39,001 bases of DNA, taken from the IMG/VR virus record IMGVR_UViG_3300009151_000163, positions 1 through 39,001 of that record; one strand, given 5' to 3'. The DNA comes from a virus. Position 1 is the first letter of the stretch, and each line of letters starts with the position of its first letter. Shown in pieces: positions 32,330-37,832 of the stretch. The position numbers were made by a program, and so were the translations under genes. Under the pieces are notes generated by a model. It was not told where the DNA came from and searched no databases. It worked only from the letters and a program-made list of their open reading frames with translations.

Positions 32330-33082
32330 ATGAAAATAAATCTATCCCCTGAAGCGTATGAGATTCAAATTGGTAAAGACATCGGTGCATTATCCGGTGT
32401 TGAAGCTACGCGTCCACCAGCCAGCGTTAAATATAGTGATGTTGTAATAACAGGTTACCGTGGTAAAAAGCTATCTACAAAAGTATGGGTTGAGGTAAAA
32501 AAAAACCATACCGATAATTTGGGAAATACAAGGGTTGCATATAGCGGTAAAACAAAAAAATGGAGTGCGTCAAACCAAGGACCGTTGGCAAAGTTTTGCG
32601 TAGACATGTTGAATAAGTCGCCCGAAGTTAAAAAAATTATTAAAGATATAGGAAAATTTGCCAACATTGATAATCCATCACTCCCAACAACAAAAGGTGG
32701 GTTGAAAGAACTAGATGCTGTATCACTTAAAACAATGAAAGCATACTTTGCCACAAAAAAAGATCAATATATTTTTACAAAAGAAAATGTTGATTTGGGT
32801 AAATTAGTAACAGCTCATTATAATTCGGGAAAAGCTGAACCAGTGCATTATATGCAAGCTGCCGATGATTTTTATAGATTGGGTAGTGATGATCCTCTTG
32901 ATCTTGGAAACGATGTACCGCTTTTAGTTGGAATAGGTTCTTTTAAAATGCGTGTTAGCTTACGCTCCGAATATTATGAAATCCAACCCGAAGTAAAAAT
33001 TACAGACATGGAAGATAGCAAGTACAGTGCATACTCTGCTTCAGCAAAGCTAAACCCTTTTACTAAAAAGAAAAATAGATGA
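32330..33082 (+). CDS. Unknown protein with a possible PD-(D/E)XK nuclease core
   Basis: 250 aa. The segment VKYSDVVITGYRGKKLSTKV (34-53) and WVEVKKNHTDNLGNTRVAY has an Asp followed by E-V-K on adjacent strands, the spacing of a PD-(D/E)XK nuclease (D-x(15-20)-E-x-K). The rest includes a Lys-rich helical middle, PEVKKIIKDIGKFANIDNPS, and a final strand region. It overlaps the ligase-fusion gene as ATGA, so both are made together. The nuclease call is an inference from motif shape; structure prediction could settle it. Confidence 0.5.
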   Translation: MKINLSPEAYEIQIGKDIGALSGVEATRPPASVKYSDVVITGYRGKKLSTKVWVEVKKNHTDNLGNTRVAYSGKTKKWSASNQGPLAKFCVDMLNKSPEVKKIIKDIGKFANIDNPSLPTTKGGLKELDAVSLKTMKAYFATKKDQYIFTKENVDLGKLVTAHYNSGKAEPVHYMQAADDFYRLGSDDPLDLGNDVPLLVGIGSFKMRVSLRSEYYEIQPEVKITDMEDSKYSAYSASAKLNPFTKKKNR

Positions 33083-34887
33083 TAAATTTTCAATCCTTTC
33101 TAGCAGAAGCTGCAGGCAACAAGCTGCAGCAAGATAAGCTCAAGCACTTAGAGCATCCTGAAGATCATCCGTTACATGCTGGTGCAGAGGGATATCAACA
33201 TGCTGTTAATACACTTCATGCTACCAACCAAGCAATGCAAGGTAAGCCAAGCAATGCACATATTACATCAAAGTGGGATGGTTCTCCTTCCATTGTGTTT
33301 GGTCACCACCCACAAACAAACAAGTTCTTTGTTGCATCAAAGTCCGCATTCAACAAAGATCCAAAGCTAAACTACACTAACGAAGATATTCAAAAGAACC
33401 ATGGTCATGCACCTGGTCTTGTTGAAAAGCTAAAGCATTCATTGCAGCACCTACCAAAGGTAGCGCCTGAGAAGGGCGTGTACCAAGGCGACCTAATGTA
33501 TTCTGGTAAAGATAAAACGAGTAAAGGTGATGAGACTCATTTTAAGCCAAACACAATTACATATGGAGTAAAGAAGGGTTCGCCAGAAGGACGTAAGGTT
33601 GCTGCTTCAAAACTTGGTGTTGTTGTTCATACACAATACAAAGGCAAAGACTTAGAGTCGATGAAGGCTAGTTTTAAGCCTGATACAAATAACTTCAAAC
33701 AACATTCAGACGTAAATGTAATCTCACACGATGTAGATGCATCAAAGAGCCACCATACACCACAAGATCAAAAAGAGTTTGAGCACCATATGAGTGAGGC
33801 TGAGAAAGCACATCAAGAACTTGTAAAGAAAAAAGGATATGCGGCTCTTGAGCGTCATGGTGAAGCAATGAAGACGCATGTCAACGCTAAGATCAGAACA
33901 GGTGAAGCTCCTTCATATGAGGGATACAAACAGCATCAGACAGAAAAAGCAAACAAGGATATTGAAAAGCTCAAGTCGGAAAAAGGCAAGGCTGCTCGCA
34001 CAACAGCGCATAATATGGCTATGAAGCAGATGGACCAAGATAAGCCGCATATTGAAAATGCTTTTAAATTACATCATCATTTACAAGCAGCGAAGAATGT
34101 TCTTGCTCGTGGATTGAGCAGTGCGCATAGCGACTACTCAACGTACCTACCTGATAGCAATGGTGAGCTCAAGAAATCTGCTGGTGAAGGCCATGTCGTT
34201 ACTATCAACGGTATGCCATCTAAGATTGTTAACCGTCAAGAGTTTGCAAGAGCTAACTTTAATCAAGGCTCACAACAAGCAAAGAAAAAAGAAGCAATTA
34301 AAGAAGCGGTTGAAGAGAAGCACCACACTCTTGCGTTTGGCCGTATGAACCCAATTACATCTGGTCACGAAACTGTTGTTAAGAAAATAAAAGATACAGC
34401 AAAAGAGCATGGCGGTGGCCACACACTTGTTGTGTCACACTCACAAGATGCTAAGAAAAATCCGTTATCTGCCGAACAAAAGGTCAAACATGCCAAGCGT
34501 GCATTTCCGGGTACCACTGTAATAGCAGCAAGCAGCACACATCCTACAATTCTTCACCACGCAACAGAGTTGCATAAGCAGGGTGTAACACATCTACACG
34601 TTGTTGCTGGTTCTGATCGCCATAAGGAGATGCATGAGTTGTTGCATAAGTATAACAATAAGACATCAGCACACGGACATTACAACTTCAGAAAGATTGC
34701 TGTACACTCATCAGGTGAACGTGATCCCGATGCTGAAGGCACGATAGGGATGTCTGCAAGTAAGATGAGAGCACATGCTGCTGCTGGTAACGAGGCTGAA
34801 TTCCACAAAGGTGCACCATCAAGTATGAGTACAGCACATAAGACAGCAATGTACAAAGATGTACGTAAGGGAATGGGCGCAAAGTAG
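33079..34887 (+). CDS. Fusion of an RNA-ligase-like domain and an NMNAT-like nucleotidyltransferase, with capsid-targeting leader
   Basis: 602 aa. Residues 1-10, MINFQSFLAE, closely match the T4 capsid-targeting leader MKTYQEFIAE, including the L/I-x-E cut site for the prohead protease. The N-terminal half has SKWDGSPSIVFG (64-75, Lys65 as adenylated residue: motif I K-x-D-G), YQGDLMY as motif III, a YGVKK part and KLGVVVHTQYK for the last motif. This fits the covalent nucleotidyltransferase fold (DUF6267-like). A Lys/His-rich helical linker follows. The C-terminal domain has FGRMNPITSGHE (about 417-428, the H-x-G-H region) and MSASKMR (about 558-564, I-S-x-S-x-x-R), as in NMN adenylyltransferases. 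The natural substrate is unknown. Confidence 0.82.
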   Translation: MINFQSFLAEAAGNKLQQDKLKHLEHPEDHPLHAGAEGYQHAVNTLHATNQAMQGKPSNAHITSKWDGSPSIVFGHHPQTNKFFVASKSAFNKDPKLNYTNEDIQKNHGHAPGLVEKLKHSLQHLPKVAPEKGVYQGDLMYSGKDKTSKGDETHFKPNTITYGVKKGSPEGRKVAASKLGVVVHTQYKGKDLESMKASFKPDTNNFKQHSDVNVISHDVDASKSHHTPQDQKEFEHHMSEAEKAHQELVKKKGYAALERHGEAMKTHVNAKIRTGEAPSYEGYKQHQTEKANKDIEKLKSEKGKAARTTAHNMAMKQMDQDKPHIENAFKLHHHLQAAKNVLARGLSSAHSDYSTYLPDSNGELKKSAGEGHVVTINGMPSKIVNRQEFARANFNQGSQQAKKKEAIKEAVEEKHHTLAFGRMNPITSGHETVVKKIKDTAKEHGGGHTLVVSHSQDAKKNPLSAEQKVKHAKRAFPGTTVIAASSTHPTILHHATELHKQGVTHLHVVAGSDRHKEMHELLHKYNNKTSAHGHYNFRKIAVHSSGERDPDAEGTIGMSASKMRAHAAAGNEAEFHKGAPSSMSTAHKTAMYKDVRKGMGAK

Positions 34888-34891
34888 ATTT

Positions 34892-34899
34892 TATAAATA
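34892..34899 (+). promoter_or_regulatory. T4-type late promoter of the virion-protein unit
   Basis: Exact TATAAATA five bases after the ligase-fusion stop, 39 bases before the next start. It drives the run of late virion genes to the window end. Confidence 0.85.
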
Positions 34900-34938
34900 G
34901 ACCACGAGTTAGGCTATGGTAAACCTCAGAGGTACTTA

Positions 34939-37089
34939 ATGGACAAATTTAAAGATCAAGATTCGATGTTGCCCGCTGCAACAAACGATAAAAAGAAAGC
35001 TGTAGTGGTAAAAACTGGTGGTAAGACACAAGTTATTATTAACCCACCAGAAAAAGTAGACCCACAACGTGGCTACCAAGAACGTTTCAAGCACGCACTA
35101 GAGAAGCATTCTGTTATCATTGAAAAGAAAACAGAGCTCGTTCTCCAATCAAAAGCTGCACGTGCAGACATTCCACAAGAAACACTTGAGCAAGTATTCA
35201 AGCGTGGATACAAAACTCTTCCTCTAAACACAGAATTAACACGTGAGCAATATGCTATGAATCGTGTTAATTCTTTCGTTGCCGGTGGCGCAGCAATGGT
35301 TGAGGATTGTGACCTACTTCCTATTGTTGAACGTGTACATGCCACTTTTGGTATGAAGGGAACGGGTGGTGCTGCTCGTCCACACATCAAACGTGAAAAG
35401 AGTGTTTACAACGGCAAGACACTATTCCACGTTGTTGATGCAAAAGGCCACATTAAACATTCAACAAACGATGAATTCGAAGCAAAGAAACATTTAGCTA
35501 CAAAATACAATTCATATATGGAAGGCACATTAAGTCCTATGAAACGTTTTGAAGGTACAAAGAGTCTTGTTAAAACATACAAAGACGACACTCCTGGTGA
35601 AGGTAAGAAGGATGTGGCGGAAGGTAACATGCCCCAGTCAGTTATCAAAAGCAAACAAAAATATGCTGACATGTCTGACCAAGAATTTCACGCCGCACAC
35701 CAAAACAAATCTGAAGAAGAACTAAAATCTATGGCATGGCGTCATGGTTACGGCAAGGGCAGCTCACATTATGTTGCTAAACATAAAAAAGGTCAGTCTA
35801 CTATGGCAGAAGCAAAAGACCCAAGCGAGTATGATAAAGAAGGCGAGATGGCTAAGGGTCAGTTGCGTACAATTATAGCTAACGCACAAAGAGCACATGA
35901 TATGCTCGAAGATGATACAAACATGGCTGAGTGGGTACAGAGTAAAATTACTCTTGCGTCTGATTACATTAGTACAGTTGCTGATTATATTCAAAGCGAA
36001 TTAAAAGAAGGTAAGATGTCTGATTTGGATATTGATATGCAGACAATGAAAGACAAAGATTTTGAAACCCATTATGGTAAACCTAAGCGCGAATACAAAC
36101 CAAAGCTAAAAGGCAATCAAGGAAGATTAGATAAGAATAACAGTGGCCATCTTGATAAAGAAGACTTCAGATTGTTAAGGCAAGAAGAAATTGAAGGGGT
36201 AGAGGAGGCACATATTGCTTCACCATTAAATGCTGCTAATGCTAATGCTGAGTATAAACGTCAACCCTCTAACACACTTAAAGTTGATGTTAAGCATCTT
36301 GGTGGAGTATCAAACCATAAAGCTATTAAACAACACCTTGTATCAAAAGGTATTACTGCTGGAGTAGGTTCTAGTGACAATTACCATACAGTTCACCTTT
36401 CTAACATTAACCATAGCCACGGTGAGGTAAAGCAAAAACTTGGTATTAAAGAAGAAGTAAAAAAAGGTTTGTATTACTACGTAAACAGACGTAAAAAGCT
36501 TAGTATAAGCCGTGACAAAGATCATCCAAAAGCACCGGAACCACAGGACTGGGTTAATGCTGCAAAGACAGCTAAAGAAGAAGTTGATTTGTCTGAGTTA
36601 AACAAAGATACATTACACTCATACTTTAATAAAGCTGATAAACAGATCGATGCTAAACATAAAGTACTTGGCCCTCAGATTAAAGCTGGGGATACAAAGG
36701 CTGCTAACAAAACATCTGCTATCATTGGTAAACGTATGACTGGTATGGATCGTGCCGAGACAAGGCTGAATAAAGAAGAAGTAAGTCTATCCGAACTCTC
36801 CAATGCCGTTCTTGCTCGCTACAAATCAAAAGCTGGTGAGCAAGCATCTGCTGCTGACAAGGCTGGTGACTTCAAGAAAGGCAACAAGCGCTTTTCTGGT
36901 ATTATTAAAGCAACAAACAAACAATTTGATAACGATATGCGTAAAGAAGAAAAAGTTGTTTCGGGTGGATATCGTGATAGCACGGGTAAGATGCACTCGC
37001 CTGTAACTGGTTCTGGTGTAGCAAAGTCTAACGCTGATAAACAAAAACAAATTGCTGATGTTTTAAAAGCACATAGGGAGCGTAAATAA
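34939..37089 (+). CDS. Large modular late protein, probably internal head protein
   Basis: 716 aa, Lys- and Glu-rich, with little hydrophobic core. Its function is unknown. The N-terminal part includes HALEKHSVIIEKKTELVLQS and AMNRVNSFVAGG. The centre holds DKNNSGHLDKED (398-409), a full EF-hand calcium-loop pattern. A GLYYYVNRRKKLSISR module follows. The C-terminus has two copies of an EEV-x-LSEL ... KAGD ... K-x-A-N-K module (36577 and 36775), which returns in the gene at 38054. Every copy has an L-x-E site that a gp21-type protease could cut. A late promoter and the virion neighbours suggest a head-internal or prohead-core role. Confidence 0.7.
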   Translation: MDKFKDQDSMLPAATNDKKKAVVVKTGGKTQVIINPPEKVDPQRGYQERFKHALEKHSVIIEKKTELVLQSKAARADIPQETLEQVFKRGYKTLPLNTELTREQYAMNRVNSFVAGGAAMVEDCDLLPIVERVHATFGMKGTGGAARPHIKREKSVYNGKTLFHVVDAKGHIKHSTNDEFEAKKHLATKYNSYMEGTLSPMKRFEGTKSLVKTYKDDTPGEGKKDVAEGNMPQSVIKSKQKYADMSDQEFHAAHQNKSEEELKSMAWRHGYGKGSSHYVAKHKKGQSTMAEAKDPSEYDKEGEMAKGQLRTIIANAQRAHDMLEDDTNMAEWVQSKITLASDYISTVADYIQSELKEGKMSDLDIDMQTMKDKDFETHYGKPKREYKPKLKGNQGRLDKNNSGHLDKEDFRLLRQEEIEGVEEAHIASPLNAANANAEYKRQPSNTLKVDVKHLGGVSNHKAIKQHLVSKGITAGVGSSDNYHTVHLSNINHSHGEVKQKLGIKEEVKKGLYYYVNRRKKLSISRDKDHPKAPEPQDWVNAAKTAKEEVDLSELNKDTLHSYFNKADKQIDAKHKVLGPQIKAGDTKAANKTSAIIGKRMTGMDRAETRLNKEEVSLSELSNAVLARYKSKAGEQASAADKAGDFKKGNKRFSGIIKATNKQFDNDMRKEEKVVSGGYRDSTGKMHSPVTGSGVAKSNADKQKQIADVLKAHRERK
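36577..36957 (+). repeat. Two protein-level repeats (EEV-LSEL module)
   Basis: Copy one starts at 36577 (EEVDLSELNKDTLHSYFNKA), copy two at 36775 (EEVSLSELSNAVLARYKSKA). Both go on with Ala/Lys-rich helices, a KAGD turn, a KRF/KRM step and a closing amphipathic helix, each about 60-66 residues. They are alike in protein but not in DNA, so they are old duplications. A third copy is at 38786 in another gene. Confidence 0.7.
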
Positions 37090-37090
37090 A

Positions 37091-37384
37091 ATGGTATCGT
37101 TTAAAGCATTCCTAAACGAAACACCAGCATGGACAAGAAAAGCTGGTAAGAATCCTGCTGGTGGTTTAAACAGCAAAGGGATTGCTTCGTACCGCGCCGC
37201 AAATCCTGGATCAAAGCTTTCGATGGCTGTTACAACACCACCATCTAAATTAAAAGCTGGAAGCAAAGCTGCAAACCGTCGCAAGTCGTTTTGTGCTCGT
37301 ATGGGTGGTATGGAAGGCCCAATGAAGAAACCAAATGGCGAACCATCAAGAAAAGCTCTTGCATTGAGAAAGTGGAATTGTTAA
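37091..37384 (+). CDS. DUF6321-like virion protein with capsid-targeting leader
   Basis: 97 aa, very basic. Residues 1-10, MVSFKAFLNE, match the T4 capsid-targeting leader with an L-x-E cut after residue 10. The body PAWTRKAGKNPAGGLNSKGI, KAANRRKSFCARMGGMEGPM and RKALALRKWNC matches the DUF6321 type, small basic proteins found with T4-like structural genes. High charge and the leader suggest a DNA-binding internal head protein, packaged and cut like T4 IPI-IPIII. It begins one base after the modular protein stop. Confidence 0.78.
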   Translation: MVSFKAFLNETPAWTRKAGKNPAGGLNSKGIASYRAANPGSKLSMAVTTPPSKLKAGSKAANRRKSFCARMGGMEGPMKKPNGEPSRKALALRKWNC

Positions 37385-37385
37385 T

Positions 37386-37832
37386 ATGGATGAACTAATT
37401 CAAGCTATGAAGGTTGTGCTTGCCGATACGGTGACGTTTGGTATGAGGGCACACCAATATCATTGGAACGTAGAAGGATCTGATTTCTATCAATACCACA
37501 AATTCTTTGAAGAGATTTACCAAGAAGCTGAAGGTGCCGTTGATGGTATTGGTGAACAAATTCGTCAATTAGATGCGTATGCACCTCTAAGCCCAAAACG
37601 TATTGGTGAGCTGACAAACCTACAAGACACAGACGTATCACCAAATGCAAAAACAATGGTTCGCAATCTTTATAATGATAATAATATTATTTTACAAACA
37701 CTAATGAATGCATATAGATTGGCTGAGCAATTTAATGAAATTGGTCTATCCAACTTTCTACAAGACCGTACAATGGCACATAAGCAACATTTGTTCTTCT
37801 TACGTGCTACACTAAAAGGTGAAGAGCAATGA
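37386..37832 (+). CDS. dps: Dps-like ferritin
   Basis: 148 aa (E. coli Dps is 167). Dps proteins form 12-mer shells that oxidise Fe(II) with peroxide and protect DNA. The ferroxidase ligands keep the exact Dps spacing: His26 in QYHWNVEG, His38, Glu42 (Asp in E. coli), Asp53 and Glu57 in AVDGIGEQI. The N-terminal Lys-rich DNA-binding tail is missing, so DNA binding may be weak. The gene lies among late virion genes, one base after the DUF6321-like gene, and overlaps the next gene as ATGA. It may guard packaged or replicating DNA, or carry iron. Confidence 0.88.
   Translation: MDELIQAMKVVLADTVTFGMRAHQYHWNVEGSDFYQYHKFFEEIYQEAEGAVDGIGEQIRQLDAYAPLSPKRIGELTNLQDTDVSPNAKTMVRNLYNDNNIILQTLMNAYRLAEQFNEIGLSNFLQDRTMAHKQHLFFLRATLKGEEQ

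Follow-up and report, generated by a model that had tools for sequence, protein, structure and literature searches.

Putative T4-type capsid-targeting leaders on a DUF6267-nucleotidyltransferase fusion and a DUF6321 protein of an uncultured T4-like virus

Introduction

Phage T4 is known to inject an enzyme together with its DNA: the ADP-ribosyltransferase Alt, carried in the head and processed by the gp21 protease. The T4 internal proteins IPI, IPII, and IPIII yield basic mature products after gp21 removes a ten-residue leader with aromatic residues at positions 4 and 7, Leu or Ile at position 8, and Glu at position 10, the last forming part of an L/I-x-E cut site. For IPIII, an N-terminal stretch of ten residues is enough to direct packaging, and mutational data assign targeting to residues 4 and 7 and processing to residues 8 and 10 (PMC9026906). 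Alt has a shorter propeptide (ITE-6) and a C-terminal cut (PMC5694885).

Enzymes have also been reported in the particles of viruses of cyanobacteria. Table 3 of the S-CREM2 study lists 52 virion proteins (PMC10665884), the cytidylyltransferase T4-GC190 was reported in the S-SM1 virion (PMC3037559), and a kinase of S-CRM01 is cited as a virion protein (PMC10665884). The S-CREM2 study warns of copurification of abundant proteins with virions, and its virion cytidylyltransferase was represented by only 3 unique peptides (PMC10665884). That protein is reported and discussed without reference to a leader, and the available portions of the S-SM1 and S-CREM2 papers make no mention of one (PMC3037559, PMC10665884). 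Our literature searches found no paper naming DUF6267 and none describing that domain itself as a virion component, the virion records being of homologues of the C-terminal domain of the fusion described below; a search for “capsid targeting” with “cyanophage” returned only a T4 review, and one for an injected phage NMNAT returned nothing to the point.

Here we analyzed a virus record of 39 kb, referred to below as the window, in which two proteins begin with leaders of this kind. We consider it very likely that both leaders are T4-type capsid-targeting propeptides, by which an enzyme and a DUF6321 protein would be packaged, cut by a gp21-type protease, and ejected into the host.

Results

The window encodes the major capsid protein gp23 (positions 123 to 1478, + strand; Pfam Gp23, E value = 2e-151) and, from our reading of the translations, which named every other gene in the window outside the Pfam-supported assignments given here, UvsW, gp46/47, a sliding clamp, a clamp loader, a DNA polymerase, UvsX, and a gp41-like helicase. 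The combination of gp23 with T4-type replication and recombination genes identifies a T4-like myovirus, and the source of the window is an uncultured T4-like virus of bacteria. The expected gp23 maturation site reads SLME/SPVP, with its L-x-E at residues 56 to 58; the L-x-E is kept in many relatives, in variable surroundings. The window begins at the capsid gene and does not extend to the phage's own gp21 gene. In the contig with the nearest capsid relative (L183, 85% identical to the window protein), Pfam identified a Peptidase_S77 protease upstream of the capsid gene (E value = 4e-36).

Two open reading frames of the window carry the leaders, as the initial annotation had described. The first (33079 to 34887, + strand) encodes 602 aa with the N terminus MINFQSFLAEAAG, the second (37091 to 37384, + strand) 97 aa with the N terminus MVSFKAFLNETPAW. 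Their leaders, MINFQSFLAE (33079 to 33108, + strand) and MVSFKAFLNE (37091 to 37120, + strand), fit the four key T4 residues, with aromatic residues at 4 and 7, Leu or Ile at 8, and Glu at 10; the agreement with T4 in length, aromatic-x2-Phe pattern, and cut site that had been claimed for them holds under a strict motif built from the published T4 data. In both, cleavage is predicted after Glu10. By Pfam, the longer protein contains DUF6267 at residues 22 to 396 (E value = 1e-95) and CTP_transf_like at residues 418 to 532 (E value = 8e-5), and the shorter one contains DUF6321 at residues 19 to 95 (E value = 3e-22). The mature DUF6321 protein (37121 to 37381, + strand) would start immediately at the TPAW of its domain, with a pI of 11.4 and a charge of +16; its model is all helical (pLDDT of 78.5, pTM of 0.48), and a fold search with it returned nothing meaningful.

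The fusion was modeled with a mean pLDDT of 90, residues 1 to 17 being disordered (pLDDT of <50). Its C-terminal domain (residues 413 to 602; 34315 to 34884, + strand) aligned with phosphopantetheine adenylyltransferase 3otw (VIA Z = 14.8, 2.7 A over 148 residues) and with NMNAT and NadD (Z of about 13; Foldseek E value for NadD = 6e-4). It shares the fold and both nucleotide-binding motifs with the NMN/NaMN and phosphopantetheine adenylyltransferases, at an identity of just 10 to 18%. The first motif, of the type GxxxPxxxGH with the GH signature, is GRMNPITSGHE (residues 421 to 431; 34339 to 34371, + strand), and the second, of the SxxxxR type, is GMSASKMR (residues 557 to 564; 34747 to 34770, + strand), which we take to be the second catalytic motif from knowledge of the NMNAT family. 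As modeled, the domain is a HIGH-superfamily adenylyl/cytidylyltransferase fold with its catalytic motifs, and the confident model and the two motifs bear out the NMNAT-like domain proposed initially.

In DUF6267 (33142 to 34266, + strand), the residues K65, D67, G68, Q136, D138, E370, G371, K382, and R386 are conserved in at least 90% of the aligned rows. Lys65 lies in KWDG (residues 65 to 68; 33271 to 33282, + strand), where the initial annotation had placed it, and K65xDG, QGD (136 to 138), EGxV (370 to 373), and KxVxR (382 to 386) line up along the protein as ligase motifs I, III, IV, and V do, the last three being named by eye. No match to a ligase came from Pfam on 39 rows or from a sequence search of the PDB; hhalign gave less than 3% against single T4 ligases and no support against the phiM12 ligases, and in the fold search of the fusion model the list was filled by the C-terminal domain, with no ligase match for DUF6267. 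Because the proposed RNA-ligase-like domain has motif order and neither a profile nor a fold match, we treat the ligase reading as a lead: from its ligase-like motifs, DUF6267 is probably a covalent nucleotidyltransferase. The same fusion occurs in other contigs, and it aligns end to end with a BFVD model from Synechococcus phage S-PM2. A cut between its two domains (IKE/AV, residues 407 to 411) was considered and rejected; the site is present only in the window and in a relative with 91% identity (L002) and is absent from most other fusions.

Packaging could also serve a structural purpose, such as DNA condensation or filling of the core, with the enzymatic domains idle in the new host. The strongly basic mature DUF6321 protein, the pI of 9.5 of the fusion, the basic character of the adjoining proteins P0003 and P0004, and the small size and basicity of the T4 internal proteins would suit such a role, whereas the conservation of the motifs of both fusion domains and the presence of the tag on enzymes as varied as a kinase, a SAM hydrolase, and a nucleotidyltransferase, not just on small basic proteins, would not be expected from it; we regard it as unlikely.

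We then looked into how widely the leader is conserved. The strict motif, M-x(1-3)-[FYW]-x2-[FYW]-[LIVM]-x-E, was taken from the T4 data of PMC9026906 and was set after the first DUF6267 leaders had been looked at but before counting. Applied to T4 as a positive control, it yielded two ORFs starting with MKTYQEFIAE and one ORF that we judged spurious. Among the DUF6267 homologues with a readable N terminus, it was present in 71 of 96 (66 of 89 unique leaders), with examples such as MTSFKDFLSE, MINYTEYLTE, MLTFKTFITE, and MRIDFKTFLAE; a leader was absent from 21 of the 96, and the nonmatching homologues mostly begin at the domain itself (MSKNTHLEH) or with a degenerate leader. The search of DUF6267 relatives that the initial annotation had suggested found the leader in most of them. 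When leaders from all the viral-contig loci were required to fit the motif everywhere except at residue 10, 120 of 155 had Glu there, 3 had Asp, and 2 had Gln. The codons at the fixed leader sites of these loci are mixed, which points to selection or constraint at the level of the protein; among the DUF6267 homologues, the remaining leader positions and the spacer after Glu10 are variable. In the other ORFs of the collected loci, the + strand contained 41 strict matches in 1,126 (reversed motif, 4; Glu-to-Lys version, 2), and the − strand contained 2 in 1,096, both of them annotated S-CREM2 genes. These results (71/96 in the family, 120/155 for Glu10, and control motifs almost absent) indicate that the leader match goes beyond chance.

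Nine stand-alone DUF6321 proteins, that of the window and eight further ones, have a strict leader, and in most of them Glu10 is directly followed by SAAW, TAAW, or TPAW. Longer proteins with DUF6321 as their C-terminal domain have [LIVMF]-x-E shortly ahead of the same domain start in 23 of 35 unique cases (random-position background, 8.8%), and many leaderless stand-alone versions begin near MAKTAAW. Since the same start follows a leader, an internal [LIVMF]-x-E, or a start codon, the mature N terminus would be identical whether a cut or a start codon produced it.

Among the 41 matches outside DUF6267 are stand-alone nucleotidyltransferases (MDFIDYLTEAPEKHGVLAYGRMNPP), DUF6321 proteins, HAD-like proteins (assigned by eye), a zeta-toxin/AAA_33-like kinase (E value = 6.5e-9), and a protein with a weak, subthreshold ADP-ribosyltransferase match (E value = 0.025). 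Relaxed leaders, such as MKSFLELVEE, also occur on stand-alone nucleotidyltransferases, and among the loci whose DUF6267 lacks a strict leader, only five have one on an adjoining nucleotidyltransferase or cytidylyltransferase. Leaders are found in the isolates DLP_6 (MMKFTQFLAE), Melnitz-3 (INFSKYITE, after a non-ATG start), and C48C1 (MMLDFKNFITE). HTVC008M has the protease yet gave zero strict matches, and S-TIM5 (L312 and L316) gave two in 481 ORFs (372 and 153 aa) despite having no Pfam S77 match, a result that could come from chance or from divergence of the protease. Within this virus group, the leader behaves as a portable tag and heads many proteins of unrelated kinds, among them DUF6267, HIGH-type nucleotidyltransferases, DUF6321, kinases, and a SAM hydrolase.

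Next, we compared the motif with the published virion proteomes. In S-CREM2 it occurs in exactly 3 of 219 coding sequences, those of the SAM hydrolase ORF6 (MKDFDSFLEE), the kinase ORF14 (MKRFDAFLTE), and the cytidylyltransferase ORF154 (MKNFSSFLTE), the last homologous to the C-terminal domain of the window fusion. All three were detected in the virion, and they account for the whole “regulatory” class of that study (PMC10665884), whereas the motif occurs in 0 of the 167 undetected proteins (P value = 0.013 for the overlap; P value = 0.002 among nonstructural proteins). The same study also detected three near-matches, ORF13, ORF136, and the Cas9-like ORF12, in virions, although relaxed motifs also let in a few undetected ORFs; the leaderless DUF6267 protein of S-CREM2 (ORF87) is among the undetected ones. 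The single strict match in the 606 ORFs of S-SM1 is T4-GC190, and one of the four in S-CRM01 is a Ser/Thr kinase (821 aa), 32% identical to ORF14 of S-CREM2; the kinase of S-CRM01 is, as noted, cited as a virion protein. The Cas9-like ORF12 (L018, 7704 to 10313, − strand) has a longer N terminus ending in RFASFMAE/A at residue 25, possibly a long propeptide.

The leader might instead be a plain amphipathic helix through which the protein docks to a phage or host partner (tail, portal, or replication proteins), uncut and unrelated to head packaging. The hydrophobic residues 4, 7, and 8 would suit one face of a helix, the model has a low-confidence helix at the leader, and some DUF6267 genes lie near replication genes; a docking helix would not, however, be expected to show the strong preference for Glu10, the variable linker right after it, the L-x-E at the DUF6321 boundary in longer proteins, or the detection of leader-marked homologues in virions, and we find this explanation improbable. 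Chance or compositional bias, by which short hydrophobic N termini match by accident, would account for isolated matches in unlikely ORFs (one in T4, one in Syn9, and two in S-TIM5) and has a negligible probability here, being refuted for the family as a whole by the control motifs, the frequency in DUF6267, and the three of three S-CREM2 matches that are virion proteins.

Discussion

The packaging and predicted cleavage of the leader-bearing proteins, as the initial annotation had proposed, are well supported by homology, through the conservation of the leader, a close relative that encodes the protease, and three published virion data sets; for the phage of the window, they are predicted from its sequence. 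During assembly, the leader would bind the scaffold core of the prohead, as in T4, and a gp21-type protease would cut after the Glu of L-x-E, so that the processed enzyme and the processed, basic DUF6321 protein would lie within the packaged genome; both would then be ejected into the host along with it. The enzyme may be injected in active form, act early, and benefit the phage, through nucleotidyl transfer on a nucleotide or an RNA end in the first minutes of infection; judging by the domain types, its likeliest activities include restoring NAD and mending RNA that host defenses have cut.

We take this leader system to be a version of the T4 internal-protein system in which enzymes, too, serve as cargo. 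It differs from IPI, IPII, and IPIII in that the cargo includes enzymes of 200 to 800 aa, in the virus group and hosts, and in that delivery is here predicted. Compared with Alt, which is likewise a head-packaged, gp21-cut enzyme, the packaging of the fusion is a prediction and its enzyme class is different. To call such an enzyme a new kind of takeover factor overstates the case, since injected enzymes such as T4 Alt are known and a virion cytidylyltransferase has already been reported and discussed for S-CREM2 (PMC10665884). T4-GC190 and ORF154 share with the fusion the homologous domain and the leader motif and were themselves found in virions, but they are separate proteins, whereas the window enzyme is fused behind DUF6267, which carries the leader.

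That unexplained enzymes inside the particles of three cyanobacterial viruses bear the same tag makes it probable that these T4-like viruses deliver a set of enzymes into the host with their DNA. We somewhat favor a broader reading, in which marine and freshwater T4-like phages generally inject leader-addressed enzymes, one ten-residue, gp21-cleavable tag having been shuffled onto many unrelated proteins (counting nucleotidyltransferases, ligase-like DUF6267, kinases, SAM hydrolase, and ADP-ribosyltransferase-like and zeta-kinase-like proteins), so that the injected set of a phage could be read from its genome. The kinases, SAM hydrolase, and cytidylyltransferases of cyanophage virions were not firmly told from contaminants by their authors; the leader, read from the genome, singles them out, and T4-style packaging offers a testable reason for their presence. 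If this holds, the injected proteins of abundant aquatic viruses would be predictable from sequence, and the tags could be tried for loading cargo into the heads of these phages.

Several neighboring genes deserve mention. A gene shortly upstream of DUF6267 in L003 (4709 to 5245) starts with MSFKRWLFE, contains ILYHGTHDRNV, and gave the subthreshold ADP-ribosyltransferase match above; it is also present in L005, L008, L010, L012, and L013, and its product could, from these sequence features, be an Alt-like injected enzyme. P0003 (34939 to 37089) and P0004 (38054 to 39001) have in common a repeated module, EEVxLSEL... (35% identity over 95 aa), with LSE or LDE at the module starts; a reading as gp21-cut polyproteins was not supported by their L-x-E counts, which showed no excess (6 versus 5.3 and 2 versus 2.3 in shuffles). 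Between the DUF6321 gene and P0004 lies a Dps/ferritin-like gene without a leader (37386 to 37832). The gene directly 5′ of DUF6267 (32330 to 33082 in the window; equivalents, e.g., L049:1695 and L041:1724) is variable in sequence; the window copy shows a PD-(D/E)xK-nuclease-like pattern (YSDVVI...VWVEVKK), and the copies in L041, L049, L051, and L054 bear the leader.
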